Source: Nioella nitratireducens
Lineage (GTDB): Bacteria; Pseudomonadota; Alphaproteobacteria; Rhodobacterales; Rhodobacteraceae
Assembly: GCF_001879715.1 (NCBI RefSeq)
Contig: NZ_MNBW01000027.1
Location: 1 to 35,237, forward strand
Length of the DNA: 35,237 nucleotides
Direction of reading: 5' to 3'
Shown: positions 20,122 to 35,047 of the stretch, in pieces
Layout: every line of letters starts with the position of its first letter
Position numbering within the stretch: the first letter of the stretch is position 1
Translations under genes and position numbers: made by a program
Notes under the pieces: generated by a model
Databases searched by the model: none
What the model saw: only the letters and a program-made list of their open reading frames with translations
Told to the model about the DNA's origin: nothing

Positions 20122-20346
20122 ATGGACGATGACGCGCCTGCCACGAAAGTCATTGGTTTCCCCTATGCCCGATCCGGACTGGCCAAGACCCGGTCCAAGC
20201 CGCGCAATCTGGGCCTGACCGCCATGTCAAAGGCCGTTGCTCCTTCGGGCACGGGCGCCAGGGGCCATTGGTGCAAGAGCTGCAAGGGGATCTGGTACAG
20301 CTACTTCGGAGAGGCCGAATGCCCGGCTTGCGGGCGACGGGGCTAA
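20122..20346 (+). CDS. small zinc-ribbon protein linked to the hydrogenase cluster
   Basis: This 74-residue protein begins 3 bases after the regulator stop, so it is surely co-transcribed. Its N-terminal half is basic and probably flexible (FPYARSGLAKTRSKPRNLG). Its C-terminal part is a zinc-ribbon or rubredoxin-like knuckle: C51-x2-C54-x12-C67-x2-C70 in HWCKSCKGIWYSYFGEAE. The spacing is close to that of the zinc-ribbon of HypA, which is missing from the HypA encoded in this cluster. No family name is recognised. It may be a metal-binding maturation helper, a small electron carrier or a regulator partner. Confidence 0.72.
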   Translation: MDDDAPATKVIGFPYARSGLAKTRSKPRNLGLTAMSKAVAPSGTGARGHWCKSCKGIWYSYFGEAECPACGRRG

Positions 20347-20578
20347 GCCCTGTCAGCTGTCAGCCAAGTTTACATTCCCCCATGGCAACTTAGTTTTCAG
20401 TTTACACTTTGTTACCAGAAATCGCCGCGCTGACCGCTAGTGTTGATTTGCTCGACTGTGCGCAACGGTACACACTTCCACCATAAATGCCGCGACTTTC
20501 GCAGGGTCGACAAGCAACAAGCCTGGCTCTGAGGCGAGGATGTCGCGGCAGGAATGATAGTCTTTGGGAGGAAGAAAA
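20347..20578 (+). promoter_or_regulatory. hydrogenase structural-gene promoter region
   Basis: These 232 bases contain the direct repeat AGTTTACA (20367-20374 and 20399-20406). They also hold a 19-base box (20388-20406) sharing 13 of 19 positions with one upstream of the TPR gene at 24736-24754, and an inverted TTGC-N10-GCAA at 20448-20465. By eye I find no good sigma54 -24/-12 element and no strong -35/-10 pair. The ribosome site GGGAGGAAG precedes hhyS. This is the expected control point for the hydrogenase operon. Confidence 0.5.
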
Positions 20579-21541
20579 ATGGCAAACCTGTTGTGGCTTC
20601 AGGGGGGCGCGTGTTCCGGCAACACGATGTCTTTCCTGAATGCAGAGGAACCAAGCGCATGTGATCTGGTCACTGACTTTGGGATCAACGTCCTTTGGCA
20701 ACCCTCCCTCGGGCTTGAACTGGGCGATCAGGTCAAAGCGATCGTCGAGAAGTGTATTTCTGGCGAGATCAAGCTGGACATCTTTGTCTTCGAAGGCACC
20801 GTCATCAATGCGCCGGACGGCACCGGCGAATGGAACCGGTTCTGCGGGCGCCCGATGAAGGAGTGGGTGAAAGAGCTGTCAGCGGTTGCTGATTTTGTCG
20901 TGGCGATCGGCGATTGCGCGACCTATGGCGGCATTCCGGCGACGGCGCCGAACCCGTCCGACAGCGTCGGCCTGCAGTTTCTCAAGCGCGACAAGGGCGG
21001 CGCACTGGGTGAAGGTTTTGCCGCTAAATCCGGATTGCCTGTCATCAATATTCCGGGTTGTCCGGCACACCCTGACTGGGTAACGCAGATTCTGGTGGCG
21101 GTTGCCACGGGTCGGGCCGGTGATCTGACGCTGGATGAATTCCATCGCCCCAAAACGTTCTTTTCCTCTTTCACGCAGACCGGGTGCACGCGCAACATGC
21201 ATTTTGCCTACAAGGTGTCGACCACGGCGTTCGGCCAGCGCAAGGGGTGCCTGTTCTACGATCTGGGGTGTCGTGGTCCTATGACTCACAGCCCCTGCAA
21301 TCGCATCCTGTGGAACCGCCATTCGTCAAAAACCCGTGCGGGTATGCCCTGCCTGGGCTGTACCGAACCGGAGTTCCCGTTCTTTGATCTGGCGCCGGGA
21401 ACGGTCTTCAAGACACAAACCGTCATGGGTGTACCCAAGGACATGCCCGAGGGCGTGGACAAGAAGGGTTACATCAAGCTCACCTCCGCCGCCAAAGGCG
21501 CGGCACCTGCGTGGGCAGAGGAAGATATCTTCGTAGTCTAA
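20579..21541 (+). CDS. hhyS: group 1h [NiFe]-hydrogenase small subunit
   Basis: This 320-residue electron-transfer subunit carries three Fe-S clusters. It opens MANLLWLQGGACSGNTMSFL, the signature of group 1h (formerly group 5) enzymes. Where other hydrogenases have CxGC, Asn replaces the second Cys, and in this group the proximal [4Fe-4S] cluster is held by three Cys and one Asp (D29 or D33 here). Other diagnostic stretches are LDIFVFEGTVI, VAIGDCATYGGIPA, INIPGCPAHPDW, FTQTGCTRN, GCRGPMTHSPCNRILWN and RAGMPCLGCTEPEFPFF. There is no Tat signal peptide or C-terminal anchor, so the enzyme stays on the cytoplasmic side. Members oxidise H2 at low, even atmospheric, concentrations. ATG 20579 follows GGGAGGAAG. 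Confidence 0.95.
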   Translation: MANLLWLQGGACSGNTMSFLNAEEPSACDLVTDFGINVLWQPSLGLELGDQVKAIVEKCISGEIKLDIFVFEGTVINAPDGTGEWNRFCGRPMKEWVKELSAVADFVVAIGDCATYGGIPATAPNPSDSVGLQFLKRDKGGALGEGFAAKSGLPVINIPGCPAHPDWVTQILVAVATGRAGDLTLDEFHRPKTFFSSFTQTGCTRNMHFAYKVSTTAFGQRKGCLFYDLGCRGPMTHSPCNRILWNRHSSKTRAGMPCLGCTEPEFPFFDLAPGTVFKTQTVMGVPKDMPEGVDKKGYIKLTSAAKGAAPAWAEEDIFVV

Positions 21542-21563
21542 CTGCGAATTGGGAGAGAGAATT

Positions 21564-23165
21564 ATGTCTGCAGCAGTAGAAACACTCGACATTTCGCCGG
21601 TTGGCCGCGTCGAAGGCGATCTGGATGTCCGGGTCGATATTGAAAACGGCGTTGTCACCAACGCCTGGACCCACGCGGAGATGTTTCGCGGGTTCGAAGT
21701 CATCCTGAAAGACAAGGACCCCCAAGCCGGTCTGGTCGTCACGCCGCGCGCCTGCGGGATCTGCGGTGCGTCACACCTGACCTGCGCAGCCTGGGCACTC
21801 GATACTGCCTGGGGCACCACCGTGCCGCGCAACGCCATTCTGGCGCGCAACCTCGGCCAGATCGTGGAATCTCTGCAGTCCCTGCCGCGCCACCATTATG
21901 GGTTGTGGATGATCGACTATACCAACGAAAACTACGCGATGAGCCCGTTTTACGAGGAAGCCGTCAAACGCTATTCCCCGTTTACCGGCACATCCTATGA
22001 AGCAGGCGTGACAATCTCCGGCCGTCCGGTCGAGATTTACGCGCTGTTGGGCGGTCAGTGGCCGCATTCGTCCTTCATGGTGCCTGGCGGCGTCATGTGT
22101 TCTCCGACACTTACGGATATCACCCGCGCCTGGTCTATTCTGGAGCATTTCCGTCAGAACTGGATCGAGCCACTGTGGCTCGGCTGCTCAATGGAGCGTT
22201 ACGAAGAAATCCAGACCTTGGAGCAATTCGAGGCATGGCTGGACGAAAAGCCCGAGCACGCCAATTCTGATCTGGGCCTGTTCTGGCGCATGTCCAAGGA
22301 CATTGGCCTTGACCAGTACGGTAAAGGCCACGGCCGGTTCACTACATGGGGGTATCTGCCCCACGAGGACAAGTATCAGAACCCCACGATTGATGGTCGC
22401 TCAGATGCGGTGATCATGAAATCGGGCATCTACGACGGTGCATCCGACACATTCAGCCCGATGGACCAGTCCTTTGTCCGCGAAGACACGCAGCACGCCT
22501 GGTACGACGAGGCGGCGGGTGCGGTCCACCCGTTCGACCGCACCACGAACCCAGTGAGCAAGAACCCCATCGACCCGGAGGGCAAGTATTCCTGGTCGAC
22601 GGCCGTGTCGCATGCCGAAAGCGGTCGCCTCGAGGCCGGCCCGCTGGCGCGGCGTCTGGTGGCGGGCAATGACACGGGCCATGACTTCCAGCACAGCGAC
22701 GGGTTGGTGCTGGATATGTACCGCAAGATGGGCGGTGCTTCGACGATGCTGCGCCACTTTGCGCGGATGCACGAGCTTTGCATTCTCTATCGCGAAGCCG
22801 AACGCAATTTGCGCGAGTTCCAGTTGAACGACGAATGGTATATAAAGCCAACTGAAAAAGACGGACAGGGCTGGGGTGCGACCGAGGCGATTCGCGGTGC
22901 GCTGTGCCATTGGATCGATGTACGCGACGGCAAGATCGCCAATTACCAGATCATCGCGCCGACGACATGGAATGTTGGGCCGCGTACATCTGACGGCGCC
23001 CGGGGGCCAATCGAAGAAGCGTTGATCGGCACGCCGATCAAGAACAGCGCGGATCCGGTCGAGGTCGGTCACGTTTGTCGATCCTATGACAGTTGCCTTG
23101 TGTGTACTGTTCATGCGCATGATGCCAAATCCGGTGATGAACTGGCACGCTTCCGAACAGCCTGA
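21564..23165 (+). CDS. hhyL: group 1h [NiFe]-hydrogenase large subunit
   Basis: This 533-residue catalytic subunit houses the NiFe(CN)2CO site. The N-terminal ligand motif is RACGICGASH (C64, C67) and the C-terminal one is DSCLVCTVH (C511, C514, H517). A 16-residue C-terminal extension beyond His517 should be removed by the endopeptidase encoded two genes further on, once nickel is inserted. The opening VETLDISPVGRVEGDLDVRVDIENG and MFRGFEVILKDKDPQAGLVVTPRACGICG fit group 1h. Function: H2 to two protons and two electrons, passed to the small subunit. The ATG is 22 bases after hhyS with GGGAGAGAGA upstream. All active-site ligands are present. Confidence 0.95.
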   Translation: MSAAVETLDISPVGRVEGDLDVRVDIENGVVTNAWTHAEMFRGFEVILKDKDPQAGLVVTPRACGICGASHLTCAAWALDTAWGTTVPRNAILARNLGQIVESLQSLPRHHYGLWMIDYTNENYAMSPFYEEAVKRYSPFTGTSYEAGVTISGRPVEIYALLGGQWPHSSFMVPGGVMCSPTLTDITRAWSILEHFRQNWIEPLWLGCSMERYEEIQTLEQFEAWLDEKPEHANSDLGLFWRMSKDIGLDQYGKGHGRFTTWGYLPHEDKYQNPTIDGRSDAVIMKSGIYDGASDTFSPMDQSFVREDTQHAWYDEAAGAVHPFDRTTNPVSKNPIDPEGKYSWSTAVSHAESGRLEAGPLARRLVAGNDTGHDFQHSDGLVLDMYRKMGGASTMLRHFARMHELCILYREAERNLREFQLNDEWYIKPTEKDGQGWGATEAIRGALCHWIDVRDGKIANYQIIAPTTWNVGPRTSDGARGPIEEALIGTPIKNSADPVEVGHVCRSYDSCLVCTVHAHDAKSGDELARFRTA

Positions 23166-23233
23166 TGTTTATGTTTGGCCGGCGGATCAAATCTGCCGGC
23201 CAAACGACATCCGGCAATTAGGGAGGAAGCTGA

Positions 23234-23620
23234 ATGTCAGAAAATCCGGAAGCATCAATAACCCAAGCGCAGCGCCAGGCCTACTTGGACAGATATGGCC
23301 TGACACCCGCCGAAGCGGGGCATGAAATGCTCCTCCAGATGATAGAGGACCATTTCGCGGAAGGACTGGAAACCAAGGTCGAGCCTTTTCCGGAAACGGA
23401 TCGTGAATTCGGTGCGCTGCTTGACGAATTGCGGCCTCTGAGCGCGGATCAGCTGCGCGAAAAACTGGTGATCTCAGGCTGGCTTTTGCAGCCCTACGGC
23501 GAAGACGAGATGCGGTGCCAGGAATGTATGTACTACCTGGTGCACAAGCGCTGGTGCGACCTGCCAGAACTTGATCTCCCGGCAAAGCCGGAATGGTGGT
23601 GCCGTCTGTGGCGGATCTGA
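23234..23620 (+). CDS. four-Cys aromatic-rich protein A, possible small Fe-S carrier
   Basis: This 128-residue soluble protein has a helical, acidic N-terminal part (HEMLLQMIEDHFAEGLETKVEPFPETD). Its C-terminal cysteine domain is C95-x2-C98-x9-C108-x14-C123, ending PEWWCRLWRI and dense in Tyr/Trp. The pattern recalls a shortened high-potential iron-sulfur protein (CxxC...C...C next to a Trp), so a [4Fe-4S] carrier is plausible; zinc binding cannot be excluded. No signal peptide is seen, so it would work beside the cytoplasm-facing hydrogenase. The gene downstream is a paralogue with the same tail. GGGAGGAAGC precedes the ATG. No family name is recalled; similar genes accompany group 1h hydrogenases. 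Confidence 0.75.
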   Translation: MSENPEASITQAQRQAYLDRYGLTPAEAGHEMLLQMIEDHFAEGLETKVEPFPETDREFGALLDELRPLSADQLREKLVISGWLLQPYGEDEMRCQECMYYLVHKRWCDLPELDLPAKPEWWCRLWRI

Positions 23621-23633
23621 AAGGAGCGCTGAC

Positions 23634-23945
23634 ATGGATGATGACGAGACTCGCGCAACAATCGCCGAGATGCTGGCTTCGGGTCTGGAAACCGAGGTCT
23701 GGCCACGGGCCGGAACCAGCGAAGAGGTCAATGAAATCGTGGCGCGCCTGCAGGTCGAGGCAGGTCAGGATCTGGAAAAGAAACTCGTCATCGCCGGTTT
23801 CACCGATCACACGATCGAGGCTGACGAGATTGAGCAACCCTGCGAGACCTGCATGTACTACAAGGTCCATGCGAAATTCTGCGAATTGCCGGAACTGATG
23901 GTGCCGGTCGAACCGGAATGGTCCTGCCGCCTGTGGCGGATCTGA
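23634..23945 (+). CDS. four-Cys aromatic-rich protein B, paralogue of A
   Basis: This 103-residue protein shares with its upstream neighbour the phrase EGLETKV/SGLETEVWP and the whole C-terminal Cys domain: C70-x2-C73-x9-C83-x14-C98, ending PEWSCRLWRI. It is shorter at the N-terminus. The two genes are a tandem duplication that has diverged outside the cysteine domain, which suggests two non-identical carriers or a heterodimer. It has an AAGGAGCG ribosome site, and its stop overlaps the start of the maturation protease gene (TGATG). An electron-relay role between HhySL and the NifU-Rieske protein is inference. Confidence 0.75.
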   Translation: MDDDETRATIAEMLASGLETEVWPRAGTSEEVNEIVARLQVEAGQDLEKKLVIAGFTDHTIEADEIEQPCETCMYYKVHAKFCELPELMVPVEPEWSCRLWRI

Positions 23946-24418
23946 TGCCGCTTGATGTTGTCGTCATCGGATGCGGCAACCCAAACCGAAGCGACGACGG
24001 CGTCGGTCCGCATCTCATCGCTCAAATGCGCGAAAACGGCGTGCCGGAGCACACTCGCATATTCGACGGCGGAACCGACGGGATGTCGGTCATGTACAGC
24101 GCACGCGGCGCCACGCATCTGATCATTGTCGATGCCCGGGTCCCCGAAGGGTCGCCGGGCACCATTTATGAGGTTCCTGGAGAGGTTCTGGAAGCACCGC
24201 CCAACAACAGCCTGAACCTGCATGATTTCAGGTGGGATCATGCGCTTTACGCAGGACGCCGTATCTATGGTGATGCGTTTCCCAAGACGACATCGGTGCT
24301 GTTGATCGAGGCCGCGACGCTGGAGCTTGGGTTAGGCCTGAGCGACGAGGTTTCTCGCGCGGCGCGGACGGTTGAGTGCCGCATTCGGGACCTGATCGAT
24401 ACGTGGTCGGAGGCATGA
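23945..24418 (+). CDS. hydrogenase maturation endopeptidase
   Basis: This 157-residue protease of the HycI/HupD/HyaD superfamily has the family opening VVIGCGNPNRSDDGVGPHL, in which the Asp of the RSDDG stretch is one nickel-sensing ligand. DGGTDGMSVM supplies the second acidic site, and HLIIVDARV and NLHDF (conserved His) follow. These enzymes cut the C-terminal extension of the large subunit after nickel insertion. HhyL here has a 16-residue extension beyond its last ligand, so this is its dedicated protease. The start TGATG overlaps the previous stop and the end overlaps the next gene (ATGA), showing tight translational coupling. Confidence 0.9.
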   Translation: MPLDVVVIGCGNPNRSDDGVGPHLIAQMRENGVPEHTRIFDGGTDGMSVMYSARGATHLIIVDARVPEGSPGTIYEVPGEVLEAPPNNSLNLHDFRWDHALYAGRRIYGDAFPKTTSVLLIEAATLELGLGLSDEVSRAARTVECRIRDLIDTWSEA

Positions 24419-24735
24419 GCACGATCGCGATCAGGGATGGTGCGATCTATCTGCCTTGCGCCGTGGTGGACACCTATTTCCGCGGCATTGATGCGGTCAT
24501 CGTACTGATCCAACAGGATGAATTATTGGTGATGCCCGTGCATCAGGCAACCGCCGGAGGGTGCCTTTTGAAGGTCCGGAATGCTGCAGGTGATCGGGTG
24601 GTTCAGGCCCGTGATGTTTTCCAGGATCAAGACCTTCTGGACTTTGCAACCGACAGCCTGACCGTCGCGTGGCAGGCCAGCAAAGGGGCGCTTTGTGCAG
24701 AATTGAAGCCGGATCAGCGCGGCGAGGATGTGTAA
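24415..24735 (+). CDS. conserved hypothetical protein of the hydrogenase operon
   Basis: This 106-residue soluble protein probably forms a small beta-rich fold (IAIRDGAIYLPCAVVDTYFRG, AVIVLIQQDELLVMPVHQ, GCLLKVRNAAGDRVVQARDVF). There is no signal peptide, membrane helix or paired cysteine motif, and three scattered cysteines are seen. I recognise no family. It overlaps the maturation protease gene by four bases and the next gene follows after a 104-base gap with promoter-like features, so it closes the structural-gene transcript. A role in assembly of the hydrogenase is suggested only by position. Confidence 0.7.
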   Translation: MSTIAIRDGAIYLPCAVVDTYFRGIDAVIVLIQQDELLVMPVHQATAGGCLLKVRNAAGDRVVQARDVFQDQDLLDFATDSLTVAWQASKGALCAELKPDQRGEDV

Positions 24736-24839
24736 ACTAAGTTTTCTATAAACCAAGTAAGTTGACAGCGCCCGCTTTGAGTGCTTTTCTCGGTCGAACA
24801 CAGAAATCGAACCAGATTCGATTCGAGGGAGAAACCGGT
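24736..24839 (+). promoter_or_regulatory. internal promoter region before the TPR gene
   Basis: The box ACTAAGTTTTC...AAACC at 24736-24754 matches the box before hhyS (20388-20406) in 13 of 19 positions, and TGTAAACT (24731-24738) is the reverse complement of AGTTTACA there. TTGACA at 24762-24767 with TTTTCT after 17 bases may be a -35/-10 pair. An inverted repeat TCGAA-N5-TTCGA lies at 24808-24822. GAGGGAG then precedes a TTG start at 24840. Confidence 0.45.
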
Positions 24840-25841
24840 TTGACGAATATCAGTCGTGCTCAGCAGCAGGTGCAGGCGGCCATGACCGCGGTCGAAACGG
24901 CTGCGGCGACGCAGGCCGAAAAGGCCGAGATGCTGATGGAAATCGCGATGGGGCTTCAGCAGAAACCCGAACGTGCCGAAGACATCTTTGCTGCCGTGGA
25001 TCTCTACAAACTTGCCATGGATCTTGCGCCGGAAGGCGAAGTTCTGGGGGTCGCCCGCATTCGTGCGCGTATGGCCACAGCGCTGATGGCCGTGCCCGCC
25101 GAAGATGCGACGCAGCTAAAGGAAGCGAAATCCGAAATAGAGATCGCGCTTGCAACCCTGACTGCGGAAGGGTCGGACGCCGAAGTGGCCGAAGCCGAAA
25201 TGAACCTTGGTCTGATCTGCCAGACACTTGCGGGCATGCATCTCTTGCCGATCCAACCTGCCATCAGCGCCTATCAGCGGTCGCTCAGGACCTTCGACAA
25301 GACCAACTACCCCAAGGAATTCGCGGTCCTGCAAAGCAACCTGGCCACGGCGTTCCTGTCCATGCCGTTCACCGACCAGTCCGGGAAGATGCGCGAGGCG
25401 CTGGCAGTGCAGGCCTTTGAAGAGGCGTTGACGGTCGTCAACCTGATAGACCATCCCAACGAATACGCGATGCTGCAAAACAACCTTGGCAACGCGCTGC
25501 AGTACGTGTCCTCGTCTCACCGGGTGGAAAACGGATATCGCGCTCTAGAGGCTTATGATGAGGCGCTCAAGGTGCGCACCATCCGCGACATGCCCGAAGA
25601 ATATGCCAACACCATCGCGAACAAAGCCAATTGCCTGTCGAACCTGCCGGACGATCCGCAAAATCCCGACGGCGGCAACTTTGGCAACCTGACCGAAGCG
25701 GTGCGTCTGCTGGAAGAAGCGCGCGGCGTATTCGCCAAGCGCGGGGCCGGCGAAAAGGCACAAGCAGTAAGCGAAGCCATTGCCGAACTGAACGCGGCCC
25801 TTGGCCCATCAACAATTCTGGAACGGAGCGGATTACAATGA
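24840..25841 (+). CDS. TPR-repeat protein of the group 1h hydrogenase cluster
   Basis: This 333-residue, almost wholly helical protein contains several tetratricopeptide-like repeats: AEDIFAAVDLYKLAMDLAP, AEAEMNLGLICQTLA, PAISAYQRSLRTFD, LQSNLATAFLSM, LQNNLGNALQYVSS and RALEAYDEALKVR. TPR proteins act as docking platforms; here it may assemble the hydrogenase with its Fe-S partners or with the membrane. There is no signal peptide. A TTG start at 24840 is preferred because GAGGGAG lies 8 bases upstream. The longer frame from TTG 24762 would use what looks like a -35 box and adds a low-complexity leader. The next two genes encode tiny membrane proteins. Confidence 0.8.
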   Translation: MTNISRAQQQVQAAMTAVETAAATQAEKAEMLMEIAMGLQQKPERAEDIFAAVDLYKLAMDLAPEGEVLGVARIRARMATALMAVPAEDATQLKEAKSEIEIALATLTAEGSDAEVAEAEMNLGLICQTLAGMHLLPIQPAISAYQRSLRTFDKTNYPKEFAVLQSNLATAFLSMPFTDQSGKMREALAVQAFEEALTVVNLIDHPNEYAMLQNNLGNALQYVSSSHRVENGYRALEAYDEALKVRTIRDMPEEYANTIANKANCLSNLPDDPQNPDGGNFGNLTEAVRLLEEARGVFAKRGAGEKAQAVSEAIAELNAALGPSTILERSGLQ

Positions 25842-25857
25842 TGAATGGAGAATACAG

Positions 25858-26052
25858 TTGAGCGCTATAGTCGTAATTTTGGCCCTGGTCGCCGGCCTGG
25901 CCGCCGCCTTGGGTGCAGGGGCCTTGTCGGGTCTGCGCATCGGTAAAGATGCACTGGGCGCAGAGCTGGCCGCCTATATGGGCGCGCTTTACGGCGGGCT
26001 TGCAGGTGGCGGCGCAGTTGTCGTGACCACGCTTGTTCTTTTGCTGATCTAG
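25858..26052 (+). CDS. tiny membrane protein, two predicted helices (first)
   Basis: This 64-residue hydrophobic protein has two likely membrane helices: SAIVVILALVAGLAAALGAG and, after a short charged loop (RIGKDALGAELAA), GLAGGGAVVVTTLVLLLI. TTG at 25858 is taken as the start, 7 bases after GGAG; the in-frame ATG at 25801 would overlap the TPR gene and add a polar leader. No family is recognised. With the next gene it could anchor or couple the otherwise soluble hydrogenase complex to the membrane and quinone pool, which is inferred from position and hydrophobicity. Confidence 0.68.
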   Translation: MSAIVVILALVAGLAAALGAGALSGLRIGKDALGAELAAYMGALYGGLAGGGAVVVTTLVLLLI

Positions 26053-26061
26053 GAGGTCGCC

Positions 26062-26283
26062 ATGCTGGGAATGGCCATGAATTCTGCAAAACTGTTTTTT
26101 GCAGGCAAGCTTTTCAAAGACAACAAAACCGTGGTCCGACAGTTGATGATGGGGGCTGGCGCCGGCGTGATCGCCGGTATCGTCATCGGGTTGTTTGCAC
26201 CGATCTGGGTGGCAGCCATCGCCGCAGGCGCTGTAAGCGGCGCTGTGCAGCCTGTGTTGTTCAACGATCTGAAATACGCATAA
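26062..26283 (+). CDS. tiny membrane protein, two predicted helices (second)
   Basis: This 73-residue protein has a basic amphipathic N-terminus (NSAKLFFAGKLFKDNKTVVRQLM) followed by a Gly/Ala-rich hydrophobic hairpin (GAGAGVIAGIVIGLFAPIWVAAIAAGAVSGA). The basic end favours a cytoplasmic N-terminus. AGGAGG precedes the ATG. It sits 9 bases after the other small membrane gene and 3 bases before the NifU-Rieske gene, so all are translated from one message. The function is unknown; a membrane docking or quinone-access role is plausible by analogy with small membrane-linked subunits of other high-affinity hydrogenases. Confidence 0.72.
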   Translation: MLGMAMNSAKLFFAGKLFKDNKTVVRQLMMGAGAGVIAGIVIGLFAPIWVAAIAAGAVSGAVQPVLFNDLKYA

Positions 26284-26286
26284 GCA

Positions 26287-27156
26287 ATGCCGGATGCCGC
26301 ATCTCTTGAAGGCGAAGAGCCGACTCTGGATCGCCTGATCGGCGATCTGAAGGCGCTTGAAATGCTGGCAGACGGCTGGGATGAGGCGGCCCGCAACGGA
26401 GCCCATGCAAGGGCTGAAGCCGTAGATGCATTGAACAAGGAGGCGTTCCGACGGTTGATCGGAGCGCTTAAGGACAACCCAGAGTTTGGCAACGCCCTGA
26501 AAGAGGCGGCCCGGGATGAAGTGGTCTACGCCGTGTTGCGCCGCCACGGGATATTGCGGCCATCGCTCTACGAACGGGTCGAGGCGGCGCTGGAAACGGT
26601 GCGCCCGAGCCTGGTCAGCCATGGCGGCGATGCCGAGGTCGCTGCGGTCGAAGGCAAGCGCGCAGAAATTCGGTTTCTGGGTGCCTGTGATGGGTGCCCG
26701 GCGTCACAACTGACGTTCTATGCGGGTGTCAAAAAGGCCATTCAGGATCAGGTTCCCGAGATCACCGAAGTGAAACAGGCCAAGGGTCTGGGCGGTGGCG
26801 GGTCGGACGGCGTTCAGTTCACGTCGCCCTTTGCAAATTACGGCGACAACGAGTGGACAACGGCGCTGCCGCTGGATGATCTGGCCGATGGCGAAACGCG
26901 CTTTATCGACATCGACACTCATTCAGTGATCATCACCCGCTTTGCCGACAAGGTAAGCTGCTTCAAGAATGCATGCGCCCATATGGGCCTTGAGATGACC
27001 CAAGGCGATATCATCGAGACGATCCTGTCCTGCCCGCATCACGGGTTTCGATATGCGCTTGAGAGTGGCGAGTGTTTGACTGCTCCCGAGGTGCAATTGC
27101 AGCCGCACGCGGTGCGGGTCAAAGGCCCCAATATCGAAGTGAGGATTATCGCGTGA
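26287..27156 (+). CDS. NifU-Rieske fusion Fe-S protein (HhyE-like)
   Basis: This 289-residue protein has a helical N-terminal region (1-90) and a NifU C-terminal-type domain (about 95-165) with the cluster motif GACDGCPASQLT. A Rieske [2Fe-2S] domain ends it (about 185-285): CAHMGLEM, then SCPHHGFRYALESGECL, giving C-x-H-x16-C-x2-H with both Cys and both His present. HhyE and HucE, Fe-S proteins of this make-up, accompany high-affinity hydrogenases in mycobacteria and are thought to carry electrons from the enzyme to the respiratory chain. It most likely does the same here; a role in cluster delivery is the alternative. It overlaps the NHL gene start (GTGA). Confidence 0.9.
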   Translation: MPDAASLEGEEPTLDRLIGDLKALEMLADGWDEAARNGAHARAEAVDALNKEAFRRLIGALKDNPEFGNALKEAARDEVVYAVLRRHGILRPSLYERVEAALETVRPSLVSHGGDAEVAAVEGKRAEIRFLGACDGCPASQLTFYAGVKKAIQDQVPEITEVKQAKGLGGGGSDGVQFTSPFANYGDNEWTTALPLDDLADGETRFIDIDTHSVIITRFADKVSCFKNACAHMGLEMTQGDIIETILSCPHHGFRYALESGECLTAPEVQLQPHAVRVKGPNIEVRIIA

Positions 27157-28331: not shown

Positions 28332-30673
28332 CCGGTGCCCGCTTCACCGTTTCTGGTCAGGTTCAGGGCGTAGGCTTTCGCCCGACGGTCTGGCGGCTGG
28401 CGCATGAAATGGGCCTGACGGGCGATGTGAAAAACACCGGCGAAGGCGTAGTGATCCAGCTTTGGGGGGACCATGTCGCAACCTTTCCAGACAGGCTGCA
28501 CAGCGCACTGCCGCCGCTGGCGCGCATCGAACGGCTCGATGTCACACCCCTGACCGACCCAGCCCCTTGCGGATTTGAAATCACCGCATCGCAAGAGGGC
28601 GAGATGCGAGGCAATGTGACGCCAGATGCCGCAACCTGCGCCGATTGCCTGGAGGAAATCCGCAATCCGTTTGAGCGGCGCTATCGCTATCCGTTTGCCA
28701 ATTGCACCAATTGCGGGCCGCGCTTTTCGATTGTGCAGGCCGCTCCCTATGACCGCGCTAAAACAACCATGGCGCCGTTTGATTTCTGTCCACCTTGCGA
28801 GGCGGAATATTCCAACCCGGTCGACCGCCGCTTTCACGCGCAGCCGGTGGCCTGTGGCCGGTGCGGACCGAACATCTGGATCGAGAAACTTGGCAAGGGC
28901 GCGGTGAATCTCGAAGCGTTTTCAATGCTGGATGACGTGGATGCCACCGGCGGGATGATCATGAATGGTCACATCGTCGCAATCCGGGGTCTGGGCGGTG
29001 TGCATCTAGCTTGTGACGCCACCAACGCCGCGGCCGTGGCCGAATTGCGCAGGCGCAAATCGCGCACGGGCAAGGCCTTTGCCCTGATGGCCCGCGATCT
29101 GGATGTGGTGCGCGCGTATTGCGAGGTGTCGAAGATCGAGGCCGATCTTCTGTCGAGCCCGCAAGCACCTATCGTTCTGCTGAAGGCCAAGCCCAACGGT
29201 CTGCCAAGCGAGATCGCGCCGGGTCTGGATCGTCTTGGCGTAATGCTGCCCTATACGCCGTTCTATCACATGATCCTGCGGCGCATCGGGCGCCCGGTGA
29301 TCATGACCAGCGGCAATCCTTCGGGTCAGCCGCAATGCATCGACAATCAGGAAACCCGCGACCGTCTTGCCGATATCGCAGATTTCGCCTGTCTTCATAA
29401 CCGCGACATCGCCAACCGGATCGATGACAGTGTTGTGCGCGTCGATCTGGGCCGTCCGCGCGTGCTGCGCCGGGCGCGTGGATATGCGCCGCAGGGGCTT
29501 GAACTGCCAGCCGGGTTTTCCGACGCGCTTGAGGTTCTGGCGCTCGGTGCGGAACAGAAGAACACATTCTGCCTCGTCAAGGACGCCCGCGCCATCATGT
29601 CCCAGCACATGGGCGATCTGGAGGATGTGGCCACAAACGCGGATGTGACGCGCAATCTGGGTCTATACGAAAACCTCTTTGATCATGCTCCAGATATAAT
29701 CGCTGTCGATCAGCATCCGCAATACCTGTCCACGCAGCGCGGGTTCCAGATGGCAGGCGACCGGCCTGTGATCCAGGTACAGCATCACCACGCGCATATC
29801 GCCGCGTGCCTGGTCGAGAACAACCGGCCCCTGAGCGCAGAACACGTGCTAGGCATCGCGCTGGACGGCACAGGCCTGGGGGATGACGGCACGATCTGGG
29901 GCGGTGAATTCCTGATCTGCGACTACCACGGGTATCGCCGGGTCGGCTGTCTGAAACCAGTTGCACTGCCCGGCGGTGTGGCCGCCGTGCGTGAGCCATG
30001 GCGCAATGCCTATGCGCATCTGATGGCCGAGATGGGCTGGGGCGAGTTTGCAATCAACTTTCCCGATCTGGAGGTCTTCAGCCGTATGCGGGACCTGCCT
30101 CGCGACACTTTGGATGCGATGATCAAGTCTGGAACGAATTCGCCCTTGGCGTCGTCCTGTGGCCGGCTGTTCGATGCCGCTGCCGCGATTGCAGGCATCG
30201 CTTGGGACCGGCAGAATTACGAGGGCGAAGCCGCGATCCTGTTCGAGGCCGCCCTTGATCCTGACGCGCTGAACGAGCCAGATGATCTGGCCTATCCGTT
30301 TTCAATACCGCTGATGGGCGGCAAGGGCATGCCCTATATCGAGCCGCTGGCCGTCTGGCGCGCCATGCTGGGCGATCTGGTTCTGCAGACACCCATTGGC
30401 ACGATTTCGGCAAGGTTTCACCGGGGATTGGCCCGCGCCATTGTCGAAATGGCGGTGCGGCTGACCAAAGACACGGCCATCGACACCGTCGCCCTGTCGG
30501 GTGGCTGTTTTCAAAACGCGACGCTGTTCGCGCTGGTTCATCAAGGCTTGGAAGGAGCAGAGCTGACGGTTCTGAGCCATTCCGACTATCCGGCGAATGA
30601 CGGCGGTATTTCACTGGGGCAAGCCGTGATTGCCCTGGCAAACACACAAGGGGAGGACGCAAAATGTGCCTAG
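28328..30673 (+). CDS. hypF: carbamoyltransferase HypF
   Basis: This 781-residue enzyme supplies the cyanide ligands of the NiFe site by making carbamoyl-AMP from carbamoyl phosphate and passing the carbamoyl group to HypE. Domains in order: acylphosphatase (SGQVQGVGFRPTVWRLA), two zinc-finger Cys sets (CADCLEEI/NCTNCGPRFS and CPPCEAEY/ACGRCGPN), a YrdC-like domain (VAIRGLGGVHLACDATN, KSRTGKAFALMARD, MTSGNPSGQP), and a Kae1-like C-terminal domain (VQHHHAHIAACLVE, GIALDGTGLGDDGTIWGGEFL, LSGGCFQN). Length is normal. ATG 28328 overlaps the NHL stop, and its end overlaps hypC by 10 bases. Confidence 0.95.
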   Translation: MTGARFTVSGQVQGVGFRPTVWRLAHEMGLTGDVKNTGEGVVIQLWGDHVATFPDRLHSALPPLARIERLDVTPLTDPAPCGFEITASQEGEMRGNVTPDAATCADCLEEIRNPFERRYRYPFANCTNCGPRFSIVQAAPYDRAKTTMAPFDFCPPCEAEYSNPVDRRFHAQPVACGRCGPNIWIEKLGKGAVNLEAFSMLDDVDATGGMIMNGHIVAIRGLGGVHLACDATNAAAVAELRRRKSRTGKAFALMARDLDVVRAYCEVSKIEADLLSSPQAPIVLLKAKPNGLPSEIAPGLDRLGVMLPYTPFYHMILRRIGRPVIMTSGNPSGQPQCIDNQETRDRLADIADFACLHNRDIANRIDDSVVRVDLGRPRVLRRARGYAPQGLELPAGFSDALEVLALGAEQKNTFCLVKDARAIMSQHMGDLEDVATNADVTRNLGLYENLFDHAPDIIAVDQHPQYLSTQRGFQMAGDRPVIQVQHHHAHIAACLVENNRPLSAEHVLGIALDGTGLGDDGTIWGGEFLICDYHGYRRVGCLKPVALPGGVAAVREPWRNAYAHLMAEMGWGEFAINFPDLEVFSRMRDLPRDTLDAMIKSGTNSPLASSCGRLFDAAAAIAGIAWDRQNYEGEAAILFEAALDPDALNEPDDLAYPFSIPLMGGKGMPYIEPLAVWRAMLGDLVLQTPIGTISARFHRGLARAIVEMAVRLTKDTAIDTVALSGGCFQNATLFALVHQGLEGAELTVLSHSDYPANDGGISLGQAVIALANTQGEDAKCA

Positions 30674-30957
30674 GAATTCCAGGACAAATTACCGAGATCT
30701 CGGATGCGACCCGCAAGCTCGCCATGGTCGACATCTCGGGCGTGAAACGTGAGGTCAACGTGGCCTGCATCGCGGGTGATGACCCGTTGGAGGACTTGAT
30801 TGGCACGTGGACCTTGATCCATGTCGGTTTTGCCATGAGCAAGATCAACGAAAAGGAAGCGGCCCTGACACTGGAGGTCCTGCGCGAACTTGGCGAAGCG
30901 CAGGAAGAGATAGAGGCGATGCGGGCCAGTGCGGCCATGCTGTCGGAAGCGTCATGA
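30664..30957 (+). CDS. hypC: hydrogenase assembly chaperone HypC
   Basis: This 97-residue chaperone starts MCLGIPGQI; after Met removal Cys2 carries the Fe(CN)2CO unit together with HypD and delivers it to the large subunit. The family core KLAMVDISGVKREVNVACI and WTLIHVGFAMSKINEKEA is intact. The C-terminal tail (LGEAQEEIEAMRASAAMLSEAS) is somewhat longer than in many relatives. It overlaps hypF by 10 bases and hypD by 4 bases, consistent with stoichiometric co-production of HypC and HypD. Confidence 0.95.
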   Translation: MCLGIPGQITEISDATRKLAMVDISGVKREVNVACIAGDDPLEDLIGTWTLIHVGFAMSKINEKEAALTLEVLRELGEAQEEIEAMRASAAMLSEAS

Positions 30958-32093
30958 AATACGCTGATGAATTCCGCGATCCGGTGGCCGCCAAAGGCGT
31001 GCTGGCTGCCATCGAACGCGTGACCAACGAGATCGGAGCGACCAAGGAAAAGCCGGTTCATATCATGGAGATTTGCGGCGGGCATACGCACGCGATCTTT
31101 CGCTATGGTCTGGACAAGCTGACCCCGCCGGGGCTGGAGTTCATTCACGGCCCCGGCTGCCCGGTTTGCGTCCTTCCGATGAGCCGCGTGGATGAATGCG
31201 TACAGATCGCCGAAGATCCGAATGTGATCTTTACAACCTTTGGCGATGCGATGCGCGTGCCGGGCACCAAGAAATCCCTCATGCAGGCCAAAGCCGACGG
31301 CGCCGATATCCGCATGGTCTATTCGCCGCTGGACGCGTTGGAACTGGCGCGCCGCAACCCCGACCGCGAGGTGGTGTTCTTTGGCCTTGGGTTCGAGACG
31401 ACCACGCCTTCGACGGCCCTGTCGATCCTTCAGGCCGATACCGATGGGCTGACGAATTTCACTATCTTCTGCAACCACATCACCGTGCCGCCGCCGATCA
31501 AGGCGTTGCTGGATGACCCTTATATGGTCTTGGATGGTTTCGTGGGCCCGGGCCATGTGTCGATGGTGATCGGCACCGAACCTTACCAGTTCATCGCGCG
31601 CGACTATGGCAAACCCATCGTGGTGGCGGGGTTTGAACCGCTTGATCTGTTGCAATCGGTGCTGATGGTGCTGGAACAAATCCGCGATGGCCGTGCCGAG
31701 GTGGAAAACCAATATGCGCGGATCGTGCCCAACGAGGGCAACCCGGTATCCATCGCCGCCTGCGAGCAGGTCTATGAGCCGCGCCCAACCTTTGAATGGC
31801 GCGGTCTGGGTGAGATTGATGAAAGCGGATTGCGCATTCGCGACCGGTACAAGGCATACGATGCCGAGGTGAAATTCAACATCGGCTACGGCCGCAACAC
31901 ATCGTTCACAGAAGAACAGGAAGGTTGCGCCTGCGGCGACGTCATGACCGGGCGGATCAAGCCCCACGCGTGTCCGCAATTCGGCAAGGGCTGCACGCCC
32001 GAGATGCCGCTGGGGGCCCTGATGGTCAGCTCGGAAGGGGCCTGCGCGGCCTATTACCAATATGGCGGCCTTGATCTGGAGCCGGTAGAATGA
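30954..32093 (+). CDS. hypD: hydrogenase maturation factor HypD
   Basis: This 379-residue Fe-S protein is the scaffold on which the Fe(CN)2CO group is assembled with HypC and HypE. Conserved motifs: MEICGGHTHAIFRYGL, HGPGCPVCVLP, FFGLGFETTTPSTAL, FTIFCNHITVPP, GFVGPGHVSMVIG and the C-terminal cluster cysteines (GCACGDVMTG, PHACPQFGKGCTPEMPLGALMVSSEG). ATG at 30954 (MKYADEFRDP) is the normal family start and overlaps the hypC stop. No residue appears missing. Confidence 0.95.
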   Translation: MKYADEFRDPVAAKGVLAAIERVTNEIGATKEKPVHIMEICGGHTHAIFRYGLDKLTPPGLEFIHGPGCPVCVLPMSRVDECVQIAEDPNVIFTTFGDAMRVPGTKKSLMQAKADGADIRMVYSPLDALELARRNPDREVVFFGLGFETTTPSTALSILQADTDGLTNFTIFCNHITVPPPIKALLDDPYMVLDGFVGPGHVSMVIGTEPYQFIARDYGKPIVVAGFEPLDLLQSVLMVLEQIRDGRAEVENQYARIVPNEGNPVSIAACEQVYEPRPTFEWRGLGEIDESGLRIRDRYKAYDAEVKFNIGYGRNTSFTEEQEGCACGDVMTGRIKPHACPQFGKGCTPEMPLGALMVSSEGACAAYYQYGGLDLEPVE

Positions 32094-33136
32094 ACGCGAT
32101 GGACCGCCAGCCCAGACGCGTCGTTGCCGACAAGGTGACGATGGCCCATGGCGGGGGCGGCAAGGCGATGCGCGACCTGATCGAGGATGTGTTCACATCG
32201 GTCTTCTGTCCGCCCGGCATGGAAGATCAAGCGCGGCTGATGGATGATGCGCTCACCGTACCCGGAGCGCGGCTGGCCTTTACGACGGACGGGTTCGTGG
32301 TGTCCCCGATGGAATTTCCCGGTGGCGATATCGGTAAGATCGCTGTCTGCGGCACTGTGAACGATCTGGCTGTTGGCGGGGCGAAACCGCTGTGGCTGTC
32401 AGCGGCCTTTGTCATCGAAGAAGGTGTCGAGATTTCGACGCTGCGCCGGATCGCGGCGTCGATGCAAAATGCCGCCGATGATGCGGGCGTTGCCATTGTG
32501 ACGGGTGACACAAAGGTCGTCGGCAAAGGATCAGGCGATGGAGTTTTTATCACCACATCCGGCATCGGCGTGATCGCGCCGGGCCGCGACCTGTTGGCCG
32601 AAACCGTGCAGCCCGGTGATGTTGCCATCGTCAACGGCGTGCTTGGTGATCACGGTGCGGCCATCCTTGCCGCGCGCGGCGATATGGCGCTGAGCACCGA
32701 AATCCCGTCGGACTGCCAACCGCTCAATCATCTGATGGAGGCAATATTGTCTGCTGCCCCCGGCACGCGGGTTGCAAGAGATGCGACACGCGGCGGGCTG
32801 GCCTCGGCCCTGAATGAAATCGCCGATGCTGCCGGTGTCGGCGTTGAAATCGGCGAAGACGTTCTGCCTTTGCGCACCGAAGTCAAAGGCGTTTGCGAGA
32901 TTTTGGGGCTGGATCCACTCTATCTGGCCAATGAAGGTACATTGGTGATCTTCGTTCCCGAGGATCAGGCCGACGCGGCGTTGTCCGCGATGCACGCCAC
33001 CGATGCGGGCCGCGAGGCCGTGATCATCGGCAAGGCCACCACCCAGCATCCCCGAACGGTGGTGATGAAAACTGTCTTTGGCGGTCTGCGCATTGTCGAC
33101 ATGCTGGTCGGTGAACAACTTCCGAGGATTTGCTAA
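32090..33136 (+). CDS. hypE: hydrogenase maturation factor HypE
   Basis: This 348-residue enzyme dehydrates the thiocarbamate formed on its own C-terminal cysteine to thiocyanate, the CN donor. It has the AIR-synthase-like fold with MAHGGGGKAMRDLI, FTTDGFVVSPMEFPGGDIG, CGTVNDLAVGGAKPLWLS, VTGDTKVVGKGSGDGVFI and RDATRGGLASALNEIA. It ends QLPRIC, the required C-terminal Pro-Arg-Ile-Cys. It overlaps hypD by four bases, and the stop overlaps the nickel-permease-like gene (TAATG). Confidence 0.96.
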   Translation: MNAMDRQPRRVVADKVTMAHGGGGKAMRDLIEDVFTSVFCPPGMEDQARLMDDALTVPGARLAFTTDGFVVSPMEFPGGDIGKIAVCGTVNDLAVGGAKPLWLSAAFVIEEGVEISTLRRIAASMQNAADDAGVAIVTGDTKVVGKGSGDGVFITTSGIGVIAPGRDLLAETVQPGDVAIVNGVLGDHGAAILAARGDMALSTEIPSDCQPLNHLMEAILSAAPGTRVARDATRGGLASALNEIADAAGVGVEIGEDVLPLRTEVKGVCEILGLDPLYLANEGTLVIFVPEDQADAALSAMHATDAGREAVIIGKATTQHPRTVVMKTVFGGLRIVDMLVGEQLPRIC

Positions 33137-33888
33137 TGGCCTTACTGGAAAATCTTACATTTCTTGATGCGTCGTCATCGTCTGGGTTCCTGGTTTTGGG
33201 TCTTCTGTTTGGCATGGTTCACGCCCTCGAAGCAGATCATTTGGCTGCGATCATTACGCTTAGCAGGGGCGGAAAAAACAAGCTCCTGCTGCGAGGCGCC
33301 GTCTGGGGCCTGGGTCACACGGCGACGTTGCTGATCATGTCCATTGGCGTGATTGTGTTCAGCCTCGTTCTCAATGAGCAGCGCGCGGCAACGTTCGAAT
33401 TTGCTGTTGGCGTCATGCTGGTTTTTCTCGGAGCACAGGTCGTGCACAGGTTTCGCAAGGACAGGCTGCACTATCACGTCCATCAACATGAGGGACAGGG
33501 GTATCACATGCACGTGCACAGTCACGCGTCCGATGTGGCCGACCATTCCAAAAGCTCGCATGCCCACGTACACGCCGAGCGATTTCCCCTGAAAGCCTTT
33601 TTCATTGGTCTGCTGCACGGCGCGGCCGGATCGTCCGGGCTCATCGTGCTGGCGGTCTCCAAAACTGGCGACCCCTGGCTGGCTGTCGGATATGTCGGTC
33701 TGGTCGGCCTTGGGTCCGTTCTTGGCATGGCGGCCATGTCCGTTGTTGTCGGTTGGCCGGTGCTCCAGGCGCCGAAAATCGCAAAAGGCCTTCATACCGC
33801 CGTGCAGATGTCCATTGCTGCGGTCGTTGTCGCCATCGGCCTGTCAATCATGTGGGAAACCGGACCAGTGGCCTGGGGGACTGGTTGA
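33136..33888 (+). CDS. nickel permease-like membrane protein (NicO/NiCoT-related)
   Basis: This 250-residue integral membrane protein has about six helices. The first carries FGMVHALEADHLAAIITLSRG, matching the H-x4-D-H-type metal-selectivity motif of NiCoT/NicO transporters but with Glu-Ala in place of Asp-Ala. A central cytoplasmic loop is extremely His-rich (HYHVHQHEGQGYHMHVHSH, then SSHAHVHAE). A later helix has FFIGLLHGAAGSSGLIVLAVSK. It is placed between hypE and hypA-hypB, so it most likely imports nickel for the hydrogenase; relatives can also export nickel or cobalt. Its start overlaps the hypE stop and its stop overlaps the hypA start. Confidence 0.82.
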   Translation: MALLENLTFLDASSSSGFLVLGLLFGMVHALEADHLAAIITLSRGGKNKLLLRGAVWGLGHTATLLIMSIGVIVFSLVLNEQRAATFEFAVGVMLVFLGAQVVHRFRKDRLHYHVHQHEGQGYHMHVHSHASDVADHSKSSHAHVHAERFPLKAFFIGLLHGAAGSSGLIVLAVSKTGDPWLAVGYVGLVGLGSVLGMAAMSVVVGWPVLQAPKIAKGLHTAVQMSIAAVVVAIGLSIMWETGPVAWGTG

Positions 33889-34130
33889 TGCACGAGCTTG
33901 GACTGGCCCGCAGCATTGCGGGTATCGCAGAAGAAAACGCCAAAGGGCGAAGGCTCAAGGAAGTCCGCGTGGCGATCGGCCCACAGGCCTGTGTGGAACG
34001 CGGCGCACTGACCTTTTGCTGGGATCTGGTGACCGAAAGTACCGCTATTTCCGGGGTGTCCTTGGGATTTATCGATGCGGACAACGACACATTCGTCGTA
34101 CGCGAAATAGAATTTATGGAGGAAGCATAA
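33888..34130 (+). CDS. hypA: HypA, nickel chaperone lacking the zinc-ribbon
   Basis: This 80-residue protein has the HypA start MHELGLARSIAGIAEENA (nickel-binding M-H-E) and the following core (VRVAIGPQACVERGALTFCWDLVTE). Normal HypA is about 113 residues and carries a C-x2-C-x13-C-x2-C zinc-ribbon before the C-terminal strand. Here SLGFIDADND runs directly into the last strand TFVVREIEFMEE, so the complete zinc loop has been cleanly removed in frame. There is no frameshift or stop. Nickel binding at the N-terminus could persist, but zinc-dependent stability and pH sensing cannot. It overlaps both neighbours by one base and should work with HypB. Confidence 0.88.
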   Translation: MHELGLARSIAGIAEENAKGRRLKEVRVAIGPQACVERGALTFCWDLVTESTAISGVSLGFIDADNDTFVVREIEFMEEA

Positions 34131-34960
34131 TGTGTGGAGTATGCGGCTGCGCCGACCCTGCAAACGAGGTTTCGATGACCGATTCTCAAACCGGCGTCAA
34201 AGTCCTGTTGCGGGACGATCATGCGCATGACCACGGACATGATCATGATCACGCGCATTCTCATGACGACCATCACCACGGTCATGATGAGCCGCATGTC
34301 CATGGCCCGGGCGGCGAGATCATTTCCCTGGAAACTGCAATTCTCGGCAAAAACAACGAAATCGCGACCCGCAACCGCGGCTGGTTCGAAGGGCGCGGCG
34401 TCATCGCCCTGAATATCGTCTCCTCGCCCGGATCCGGTAAGACTACGCTGCTTGAAGAGACGATCAAGCGCATGAAGGACAAAGCCGATATCGCGGTCAT
34501 CGAAGGTGATCAGATGACGTCGAATGACGCCGATCGTATCCGCGATGCAGGCGCCCGTGCCGTCCAGATCAACACCGGTGCCGGGTGCCATCTCGAAGCG
34601 GATATGATTGCCTTCGCCGTACAATCTTTGGATCCCCAAACCGGGTCAATCCTGATGATCGAGAATGTGGGAAATCTGGTGTGTCCGGCCATGTTCGATC
34701 TGGGCGAAAAGATGAAAATCGCTGTGATTTCAACGACGGAAGGCGAAGACAAGCCGACCAAATACCCACATATGTTCCGCGCCGTGGAATGGGTCGTCAT
34801 CAACAAAATGGATCTGGCTCCGCATGTGGATTTCGATGAAGAAGCCTGTCGGCAAAACATATTGGAGGTCAATCCGGGAGTGAAAATCTTCTGCCTGTCG
34901 GCCCGAACGGGGGATGGCATGGATGCATGGTGTTCGAGCCTGGCCGAATTGAAAGCCTGA
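34130..34960 (+). CDS. hypB: hydrogenase nickel-insertion GTPase HypB
   Basis: This 276-residue SIMIBI GTPase inserts nickel with HypA. The N-terminus has MCGVCGC (CxxCGC nickel site) and a long His/Asp-rich stretch of about 16 His residues (HAHDHGHDHDHAHSHDDHHH and HVHG) that can store nickel. The G domain has P-loop SSPGSGKTTLLEE, switch EGDQMTSNDADRIRDAG, metal-site TGAGCHLEADM, ENVGNLVCPAMFDLGE, STTEGEDKPTKYP and NKMDLAPH. Length is typical for the His-rich type. The start overlaps the hypA stop (TAATG). It is the last gene of the cluster. Confidence 0.95.
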   Translation: MCGVCGCADPANEVSMTDSQTGVKVLLRDDHAHDHGHDHDHAHSHDDHHHGHDEPHVHGPGGEIISLETAILGKNNEIATRNRGWFEGRGVIALNIVSSPGSGKTTLLEETIKRMKDKADIAVIEGDQMTSNDADRIRDAGARAVQINTGAGCHLEADMIAFAVQSLDPQTGSILMIENVGNLVCPAMFDLGEKMKIAVISTTEGEDKPTKYPHMFRAVEWVVINKMDLAPHVDFDEEACRQNILEVNPGVKIFCLSARTGDGMDAWCSSLAELKA

Positions 34961-34966
34961 AATTGA

Positions 34967-35047
34967 ACGGATTGGTGAGTTACCTCTCCTGTCAAGTCAC
35001 TGCTGTGAGACCCTCATCCATATCGTGAGTGCAGCGCACCAATCCGT
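34967..35047. repeat. long-range 11-bp inverted repeat after hypB
   Basis: ACGGATTGGTG (34967-34977) and CACCAATCCGT (35037-35047) are perfectly complementary, 59 bases apart, followed by GTAAAAAAAAG. It begins 7 bases after the hypB stop. It could be a large-loop terminator, the ends of a tiny non-autonomous element, or a recombination scar next to the transposase remnant. Confidence 0.45.

Follow-up and report, generated by a model that had tools for sequence, protein, structure and literature searches.

The stretch of DNA analysed here (the window) comprises contig C20 in full (35,237 bp), one of the 84 contigs in the draft genome (4.01 Mb) of Nioella nitratireducens, and it carries a complete [NiFe]-hydrogenase operon that we assign, from its sequence, to group 2a, the Huc type. 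The gene set runs head to tail on the + strand from a transcriptional activator through HypB (18613-34960), and the right end of the window is a contig break inside a downstream insertion sequence (IS). The activator (18613-20118) is sigma-54-dependent, with a response-regulator-like N-terminus (Pfam Sigma54_activat E 2e-59, HTH_8); it lies at the equivalent place in the plasmids pow41 of Octadecabacter SW4 and pRIdsm_03 of Roseovarius indicus, and we take it to be HupR/HoxA-like. Behind it stands zr (20122-20346), a 74-residue open reading frame (ORF) with a zinc-ribbon-like CxxC...CxxC pattern; the unit therefore begins earlier than position 20347, from which the initial annotation had counted it. 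The small subunit HucS (20579-21541) has no Tat leader and carries the motif GGACSGNT, and the large subunit HucL (21564-23165) has a C-terminal extension and the NiFe-binding motifs CGIC and CLVC. There follow hp1 (23234-23620), a 128-residue four-cysteine protein and putative iron-sulfur carrier with the pattern CxxC-x9-C-x14-C and W-[WYS]-C-x-L-W; its paralogue hp2 (23634-23945), of the same cysteine pattern; a maturation protease of the HycI family (23927-24418; Pfam E 7.7e-13); a small conserved protein known from homologues and without assigned function (24403-24735); and a TPR-like protein (24834-25841), kept in group 2a clusters including those of some Cyanobacteria, whose assignment is weak (Pfam E 3) and whose name comes from the annotation of a Thermus homologue. 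Sequence and homologues distinguish two small hydrophobic proteins, the glycine-rich tm1 (25858-26052) and tm2 (26062-26283), ahead of HucE (26287-27156), which joins a NifU-like part to a Rieske [2Fe-2S] part (Pfam E 6.8e-21 and 5.3e-13), and of an NHL-repeat protein (27147-28331; Pfam E 9.3e-25). The maturation genes close the operon: HypF (28328-30673), HypC (30664-30957), HypD (30954-32093), HypE (32090-33136), a NicO/HupE-like nickel permease with a His-rich loop (33136-33888; Pfam NicO E 2.3e-5, its 24.3 bits just below the cut-off of 27.7), HypA (33888-34130) and HypB (34175-34960), which has an N-terminal Cys motif and a His-rich stretch and whose start was placed by analogy with pRIdsm_03. 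The earlier description of a complete island with regulator, hypABCDEF, permease and accessory proteins thus holds for the parts, with the correction that HypA is an 80-residue form, retaining the nickel domain and lacking the zinc ribbon, which matches positions 1-64 of 112 only in the Pfam HypA model.

The class of the enzyme was examined against structures, in a tree and by motif. HucL matched the Protein Data Bank (PDB) chains 7uus/7utd ('Hydrogenase-2') at E 1.8e-178 and the group 1h subunit HofG at E 1.2e-37, and HucS matched the Huc small subunit at E 6.6e-158 and the group 1h HofK at 1.6e-32. We take 7uus and 7utd to be chains of Mycobacterium smegmatis Huc. This agrees with the account of that enzyme in PMC10017518. 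A tree of 32 large subunits placed the window protein in an 18-row clade (support 100/98) together with mycobacterial Huc and the enzymes of Runella, Thermus, Nostoc, Nitrospirales and Acidithiobacillus, and the four 1h large subunits formed a separate clade (100/100); the tree was flagged for long branches, and the grouping was unchanged after the longest row was dropped. Forcing the window protein among the 1h rows was rejected by the approximately unbiased (AU) test (p-AU 0.00098), as was forcing nine alphaproteobacterial rows in the same way (p 0.0035). Some of the class names used in this tree are in print: the enzyme of Sphingopyxis alaskensis is classed as 2a in PMC10305171 and those of Runella, Mycobacterium and Acidithiobacillus in PMC7784904. 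The motif GGACSGNT, which had been read as a signature of group 1h, proved to be one of 2a small subunits; it recurs in M. intracellulare Huc, Nostoc, Acidithiobacillus and Runella (Thermus reads GGACNGNT), and the two 1h small subunits compared have GL[GS]CDGDS at this place (HofK GLGCDGDS, mycobacterial HhyS GLSCDGDS). HucE and the NHL protein are both encoded in the window operon, and Rieske/NifU-type HucE and NHL proteins are reported as common partners of group 2a enzymes (PMC7784904). Because the PDB matches, the place in the 2a clade, the AU rejection of 1h and the small-subunit motif all agree, the hydrogenase is of group 2a, Huc-type.

The whole-cluster horizontal mobility proposed in the initial annotation is borne out by comparison across genera. 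A 14,565-bp core of the cluster differs by 0-4 substitutions among six hosts of different genera, namely the present genome, Octadecabacter SW4, R. indicus, an Aestuariivita metagenome-assembled genome (MAG), Thiosulfatihalobacter marinus and Brevirhabdus pacifica; the single indel, of 12 bp, is in Thiosulfatihalobacter. Over 16,560 bp (18570-35129) the window is 100.0% identical, after rounding, to both pRIdsm_03 and pow41, with two to four differences when compared base by base, and both plasmids are typed as conjugative. Among the best 80 named loci HucL is also 100% identical in the Aestuariivita MAG, T. marinus and B. pacifica, while the two further loci compared are more distant over the core (Seohaeicola 87.8%, Roseovarius lutimaris 74.7%). 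The rpoB loci (about 7.1 kb with flanks) of the present genome and of the two genomes equated by their contigs with Octadecabacter SW4 and Brevirhabdus are 79.6-83.6% identical to one another. Nor is the cluster a fixture among relatives, as presence and absence across genomes showed: the gene was found in one of six genomes of the genus, the present one included. In the family 14 of 394 genomes gave a match at E 1e-80, of which seven are group 2a by identity of at least 87% (in one of them a contig end truncates the gene, and the part that is left is 97% identical); the other seven, at 37-38% identity, fall with the regulatory HoxC type. Taken together, the sequences are strong evidence for a very recent spread of the module over six genera.

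The surroundings of the operon are of plasmid type. To the left of the cargo lie backbone genes on the + strand (10752-16927) for ArdC-like, DUF3768, ParB-like and DUF6927 proteins and a PrlF/YhaV toxin-antitoxin pair. The region 77-17516 is 98.1% identical to pRIdsm_03 when the matching pieces, which cover 94% of it, are joined, and about 95% identical to the Pseudosulfitobacter plasmids among its matches; the island itself matched 10 plasmid records, with no Pseudosulfitobacter among them. The near-100% tract begins at 11616 in the comparison with R. indicus, where it is broken by an 8.5-kb transposon, and at 13121 in that with Octadecabacter, where a divergent patch at 16006-16783 covers the toxin-antitoxin genes. 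On the right, the tract shared by pow41 and pRIdsm_03 ends at position 34538 of the pRIdsm_03 locus (L004), in the first codons of a strawberry-notch helicase gene, beyond which the two are about 81-99% alike per 250-bp bin. Contig C7 of the N. nitratireducens assembly continues the cargo and includes the helicase gene, whose protein is 97.5% identical; its tract with R. indicus extends to L004 34794 and contains one difference. In Roseovarius AK1035 the slot is empty, the matches to its two sides lying 430 bp apart; R. mucosus resembles it by hit coordinates, and in Sulfitobacter SK025 the slot is filled by other cargo. On the best reading the hydrogenase operon is the cargo of a plasmid of a family common in roseobacters, in a slot that has the PrlF/YhaV genes on one side and the strawberry-notch helicase gene on the other. 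The cluster would move along with its plasmid, or related plasmids would swap it by way of the backbone sequence that they have in common, and since the tracts end within shared backbone genes we infer homologous recombination between such plasmids. As to a phage as vehicle, the island had no megablast match in 50,697 phage records.

Several features of these plasmids deserve mention in their own right. The PrlF/YhaV genes at 16006-16783 differ between the window and pow41 within an otherwise identical tract, a sign of allele exchange. Further left, the backbone region 717-9272, common to the Pseudosulfitobacter plasmids, holds PepSY, ferric-reductase-like, flavodoxin-like, ApbE, heavy-metal P-type ATPase and VIT genes and looks like a module for iron or metal handling. 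The 8.5-kb transposon of pRIdsm_03 (L004 8441-16973), just left of the hydrogenase cargo, is flanked by a 5-bp duplication (ACAAC) and has Tn3-like terminal repeats; its genes are for phosphonate/phosphite transport, for an NAD(P)-dependent oxidoreductase and for a recombinase. In plasmid pLA5 of Novosphingobium US6-1 (L009) a homologous cluster lies between two Tn3-family transposase/recombinase pairs, at 8334-12013 and 39602-41590.

Two IS elements flank the operon in the window, as the initial annotation had pointed out. The IS5-type element upstream is confirmed: it is a 1,050-bp IS5-family element (17517-18566, - strand, transposase at 17571-18503) at the left edge of the cargo, with 16-bp perfect terminal repeats and a 9-bp target duplication, CTCTGAAGC, at 17508-17516 and 18567-18575. 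The end of an IS481/IS3-like element is likewise present downstream (35130-35237, - strand), with an rve_3 match (E 1.5e-4, 21.9 bits) below the 26.5-bit cut-off; its 6-bp target duplication, CCTAGA, stands at 35124-35129 and again at the start of contig C7. These elements do not, however, bound the mobile unit, as had been suggested; both are secondary insertions, and the identical tract extends past them into plasmid backbone. The site of the left element is uninterrupted in pow41 and in pRIdsm_03, where the 8.5-kb transposon sits about 35 bp further left; the left element is absent in Thiosulfatihalobacter and the right one in Brevirhabdus. The Brevirhabdus and Aestuariivita contigs start within the same left insertion (the Aestuariivita element has a 41-bp gap), and since this element is common to these copies and our own it seems to mark a sub-lineage. 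The flanking IS elements are thus later passengers of the cluster and not its vehicle.

Other explanations of these observations have to be weighed. That the enzyme is a group 1h (Hhy) high-affinity hydrogenase of the actinobacterial type, the view of the initial annotation, might appear to gain from a proximal-cluster pair short of one cysteine and from a compact cluster with its own hyp genes, like that of Cupriavidus necator pHG1. However, HucL clusters with group 2a, the kind of outcome that the initial annotation itself had named as refuting its view, and the 1h rows keep to their own 100/100 clade (AU p 0.001), the E-values for HofG and HofK (1e-37 and 1e-32) compare with 1e-178 and 1e-158 for Huc, GGACSGNT stands where HofK has GLGCDGDS and mycobacterial HhyS GLSCDGDS, and HucE is of the Rieske type, unlike HhyE, which is described as having two C-terminal CxxC motifs (PMC6883350); tree and motifs together refute the 1h assignment, to which we attach practically no credence. 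A composite transposon moved by its two flanking IS would explain why an element stands at both cluster ends in the window, but the two belong to different families and each has its own target duplication, neither occupies these sites in pow41 or pRIdsm_03 in spite of a near-identical cluster, and Thiosulfatihalobacter has such a cluster without the left element, so that we think this origin very improbable. Near-identity across genera could also arise from cross-contamination during sequencing, and the absence of any difference from Brevirhabdus over 16,658 bp, including about 95 bp of the IS5 element, is what such an accident would leave; yet Brevirhabdus has its own backbone versions, at 92-97%, on other contigs, and contamination is for that reason most unlikely. 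In addition, pow41 and pRIdsm_03 are circular plasmid records with flanks 92-97% alike.

Against the movement of this cluster as plasmid cargo, and against trace-H2 oxidation as its function, some points must be set. The assembly is a draft in which no plasmid circle is closed; searches at E 1e-10 with four transfer proteins of pow41 and with two RepC proteins matched nothing on contig C20 or C7, and a VirB10 homologue (57%) sits on another contig, C14, so that self-transfer of the replicon in N. nitratireducens is not established. Moreover, two other marine isolates, with group 1l enzymes, are reported to show no substantial H2 consumption (PMC10305171). Even with these points in the balance we consider it very probable that the window holds a complete group 2a operon, borne as plasmid cargo and moved between genera with the plasmid or by homologous exchange, whose HucSL is predicted to oxidise H2.

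The activity, affinity and regulation of the enzyme are predicted from its genes and from characterized relatives. The link to atmospheric H2 made in the initial annotation survives the change of class, because group 2a enzymes too are reported to oxidise it: M. smegmatis Huc does so (PMC10017518), and S. alaskensis, whose group 2a enzyme is encoded on a plasmid, drew H2 down to sub-atmospheric levels while growing, which is given as presumably the earliest example among marine bacteria (PMC10305171). By analogy, HucSL of the window would most likely oxidise H2 in the cytoplasm, probably down to the atmospheric level, and would pass the electrons to the quinone pool. Ubiquinone is the quinone expected in this bacterial family. 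HypA-F, the NicO permease and the protease would build the NiFe site, and the sigma-54 activator may switch the operon on.

How the electrons might reach the membrane can be considered from the mycobacterial enzyme, which is described as having three [3Fe-4S] clusters and reducing menaquinone directly at a site formed by HucS Tyr301, Lys212 and Tyr229, with a tube of HucM carrying the quinone 94 A from the membrane (PMC10017518). The corresponding residues of the window HucS, matched by alignment, are K212, Y227 and Y298 (M. smegmatis Lys212, Tyr229 and Tyr301), and all 84 group 2a rows keep these three unchanged, in a set in which many rows are related and which was formed by dropping three of 84 loci (HucS missing or short) and adding the window, Thermus and Runella; the two 1h rows have A/G, V and L. 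HucM (DUF1641, PF07849) was above the cut-off in none of the six whole genomes with the cluster and in none of four proteobacterial plasmids, the one sub-threshold match (E 0.005) lying in one of those six genomes; PF07849 was found in both the Mycobacterium and the Thermus records. HucM is a feature of the mycobacterial enzyme and not of group 2a as a whole.

The pair hp1/hp2 accompanies the enzyme closely in this lineage. It occurs in six of the 394 family genomes, each with a complete 2a HucL (the sequence of the seventh 2a genome breaks off within hucL), and in four of 398 genomes of the phylum, exactly the four with HucL of at least 78% identity, whereas it is absent from the 17 other phylum genomes, with large subunits at 35-42%; the two genome samples overlap. 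At least 1,500 bp of sequence follows HucL in 77 of the 80 best named loci; two hp ORFs stand there in 56 of them, one in seven and none in 14, and these 14 (by record title, 13 from Cyanobacteria or Melainabacteria and one from an uncultured bacterium) show that group 2a systems do not all have the pair. For the uptake hydrogenases of Cyanobacteria the electron acceptors are described as long enigmatic (PMC6883350). Within hp1, twelve residues are invariant in 48 rows, among them C95, C98, C108, C123, W121 and W126. The protein has no Pfam or NCBIfam family and no Pfam match up to E 10, and hp2 reached only DUF1284, at E 0.05. A confident AF2 model of hp1 (pLDDT 92.5) found no fold match in the PDB by Foldseek, in a search run without a positive control (best E 5.8), and the cysteine tail modelled by itself scored low (pLDDT 54.6).

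The cysteine and tryptophan spacing of both proteins resembles that of the high-potential iron-sulfur protein (HiPIP); this identity was not confirmed by Pfam, by Foldseek or by a profile search of PDB sequences with hp1 and hp2, in which no HiPIP appeared up to E 10. A putative HiPIP gene beside hupLS, together with a Rieske protein, has been described in Acidithiobacillus ferrooxidans as a likely link to ubiquinone (PMC7735108), and the idea of such a relay is thus not new. It is possible, though less likely than not, that hp1 and hp2 act together with HucE, tm1 and tm2 to transfer electrons or to hold the enzyme in place in systems that lack HucM; the pair, the Rieske protein HucE and tm1/tm2 would then do the membrane coupling that HucM does in mycobacteria. 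On this basis we put forward, tentatively, a second architecture of atmospheric-H2 respiration, built on a HucM-less Huc enzyme with an internal quinone site, in which hp1/hp2 as a dedicated tandem pair, HucE and tm1/tm2 would couple the enzyme to ubiquinone and which may be sweeping through marine roseobacters on plasmids. The main alternative is a role in maturation, with hp1 and hp2 as zinc proteins or iron-sulfur-cluster assembly factors rather than electron carriers. The lack of a fold match of hp1 to HiPIP or any PDB entry and the failure of the cysteine tail to fold in prediction speak for it, while the invariant spacing of Cys and Trp and the naming of the A. ferrooxidans gene as a putative HiPIP speak against; we regard it as a serious possibility that falls short of an even chance.

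Comparison with known systems places the operon nearest to that on the F plasmid of S. alaskensis RB2256, whose HucL is 84% identical and whose gene order is nearly the same, including zr, hp1, hp2, tm1, tm2, HucE, NHL, hypFCDE, the NicO-like gene and a short HypA. It differs in that a SIS-domain gene separates hypC from hypD, its proteins apart from HucL and HucS are 41-75% identical, and the plasmid is typed as mobilizable (MOBQ), unlike the conjugative pow41 and pRIdsm_03. Mycobacterial Huc (M. smegmatis in the PDB, M. intracellulare compared here) shares HucSL, the quinone-site residues, HucE, NHL, the protease and the hyp genes, but has HucM (DUF1641) upstream of hucS, a full-length HypA, and no match to hp1, hp2, zr, tm1 or tm2. 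In Acidithiobacillus, with a group 2a Hup, HucL of A. ferruginosus is 72% identical, the comparison of context being slight as the 3.6-kb contig ends inside the first hp ORF; in A. ferrooxidans the route to ubiquinone is proposed to run through the product of a HiPIP-like gene next to hupLS and through a Rieske/NifU protein (PMC7735108). HofKG of C. necator pHG1, a group 1h or actinobacterial-type hydrogenase (AH), resembles the present case in being a [NiFe]-hydrogenase that is encoded, along with a hyp set of its own, on a megaplasmid, but belongs to another clade, with other cluster motifs and other partner genes.

Among 12 HypA rows seven are short and five long, the seven including three copies of one island and an identical sphingomonad pair. 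The short form occurs in roseobacter-type and sphingomonad group 2a clusters and the full-length form, of 109-115 residues with Cys pairs, in Hyphomicrobiales, Mycobacterium and others. The zr ORF at 20122, considered as the missing zinc part of a split HypA, was rejected in that role since the Bradyrhizobium and Mesorhizobium clusters carry a full-length HypA plus the ribbon ORF. It is present in 51 of the 71 group 2a loci whose sequence reaches 2,600 bp or more upstream of HucL, and differs from that of Seohaeicola by 17 synonymous and 15 non-synonymous codon changes (12, 7 and 22 by codon position). Upstream of hucS (20347-20579), an alignment of five sequences showed repeated GTTTGCA/GTTTACA-like elements common to relatives, which are possible operator sites of the activator. 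The sigma-54 promoter consensus TGGCACGNNNNTTGCW, with up to three mismatches allowed, was matched 62 times, where chance alone predicts 66, and no promoter is claimed.

Plasmid-borne hydrogenases are already in print, on pRUNSL01, the S. alaskensis F plasmid and pGLAAG01 (PMC4224046), and an uptake hydrogenase of Salipiger mucosus is mentioned, its class and replicon unstated in the part concerned, in PMC4148975; no title in the open-licence PMC literature searched names a roseobacter plasmid-borne group 2a hydrogenase. The absence of HucM beside an intact quinone site raises the question of how non-mycobacterial group 2a enzymes reach the membrane, for which hp1 and hp2 are concrete candidates in Pseudomonadota. 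With a near-identical cluster in six genera, complete plasmid records and a relative with an empty slot, the gain of trace-H2 oxidation by plasmid transfer becomes directly testable. If this reading is true, each new roseobacter host would acquire the atmospheric-H2 trait in one step, and an energy source based on trace H2 appears to be passed around whole between marine bacteria.

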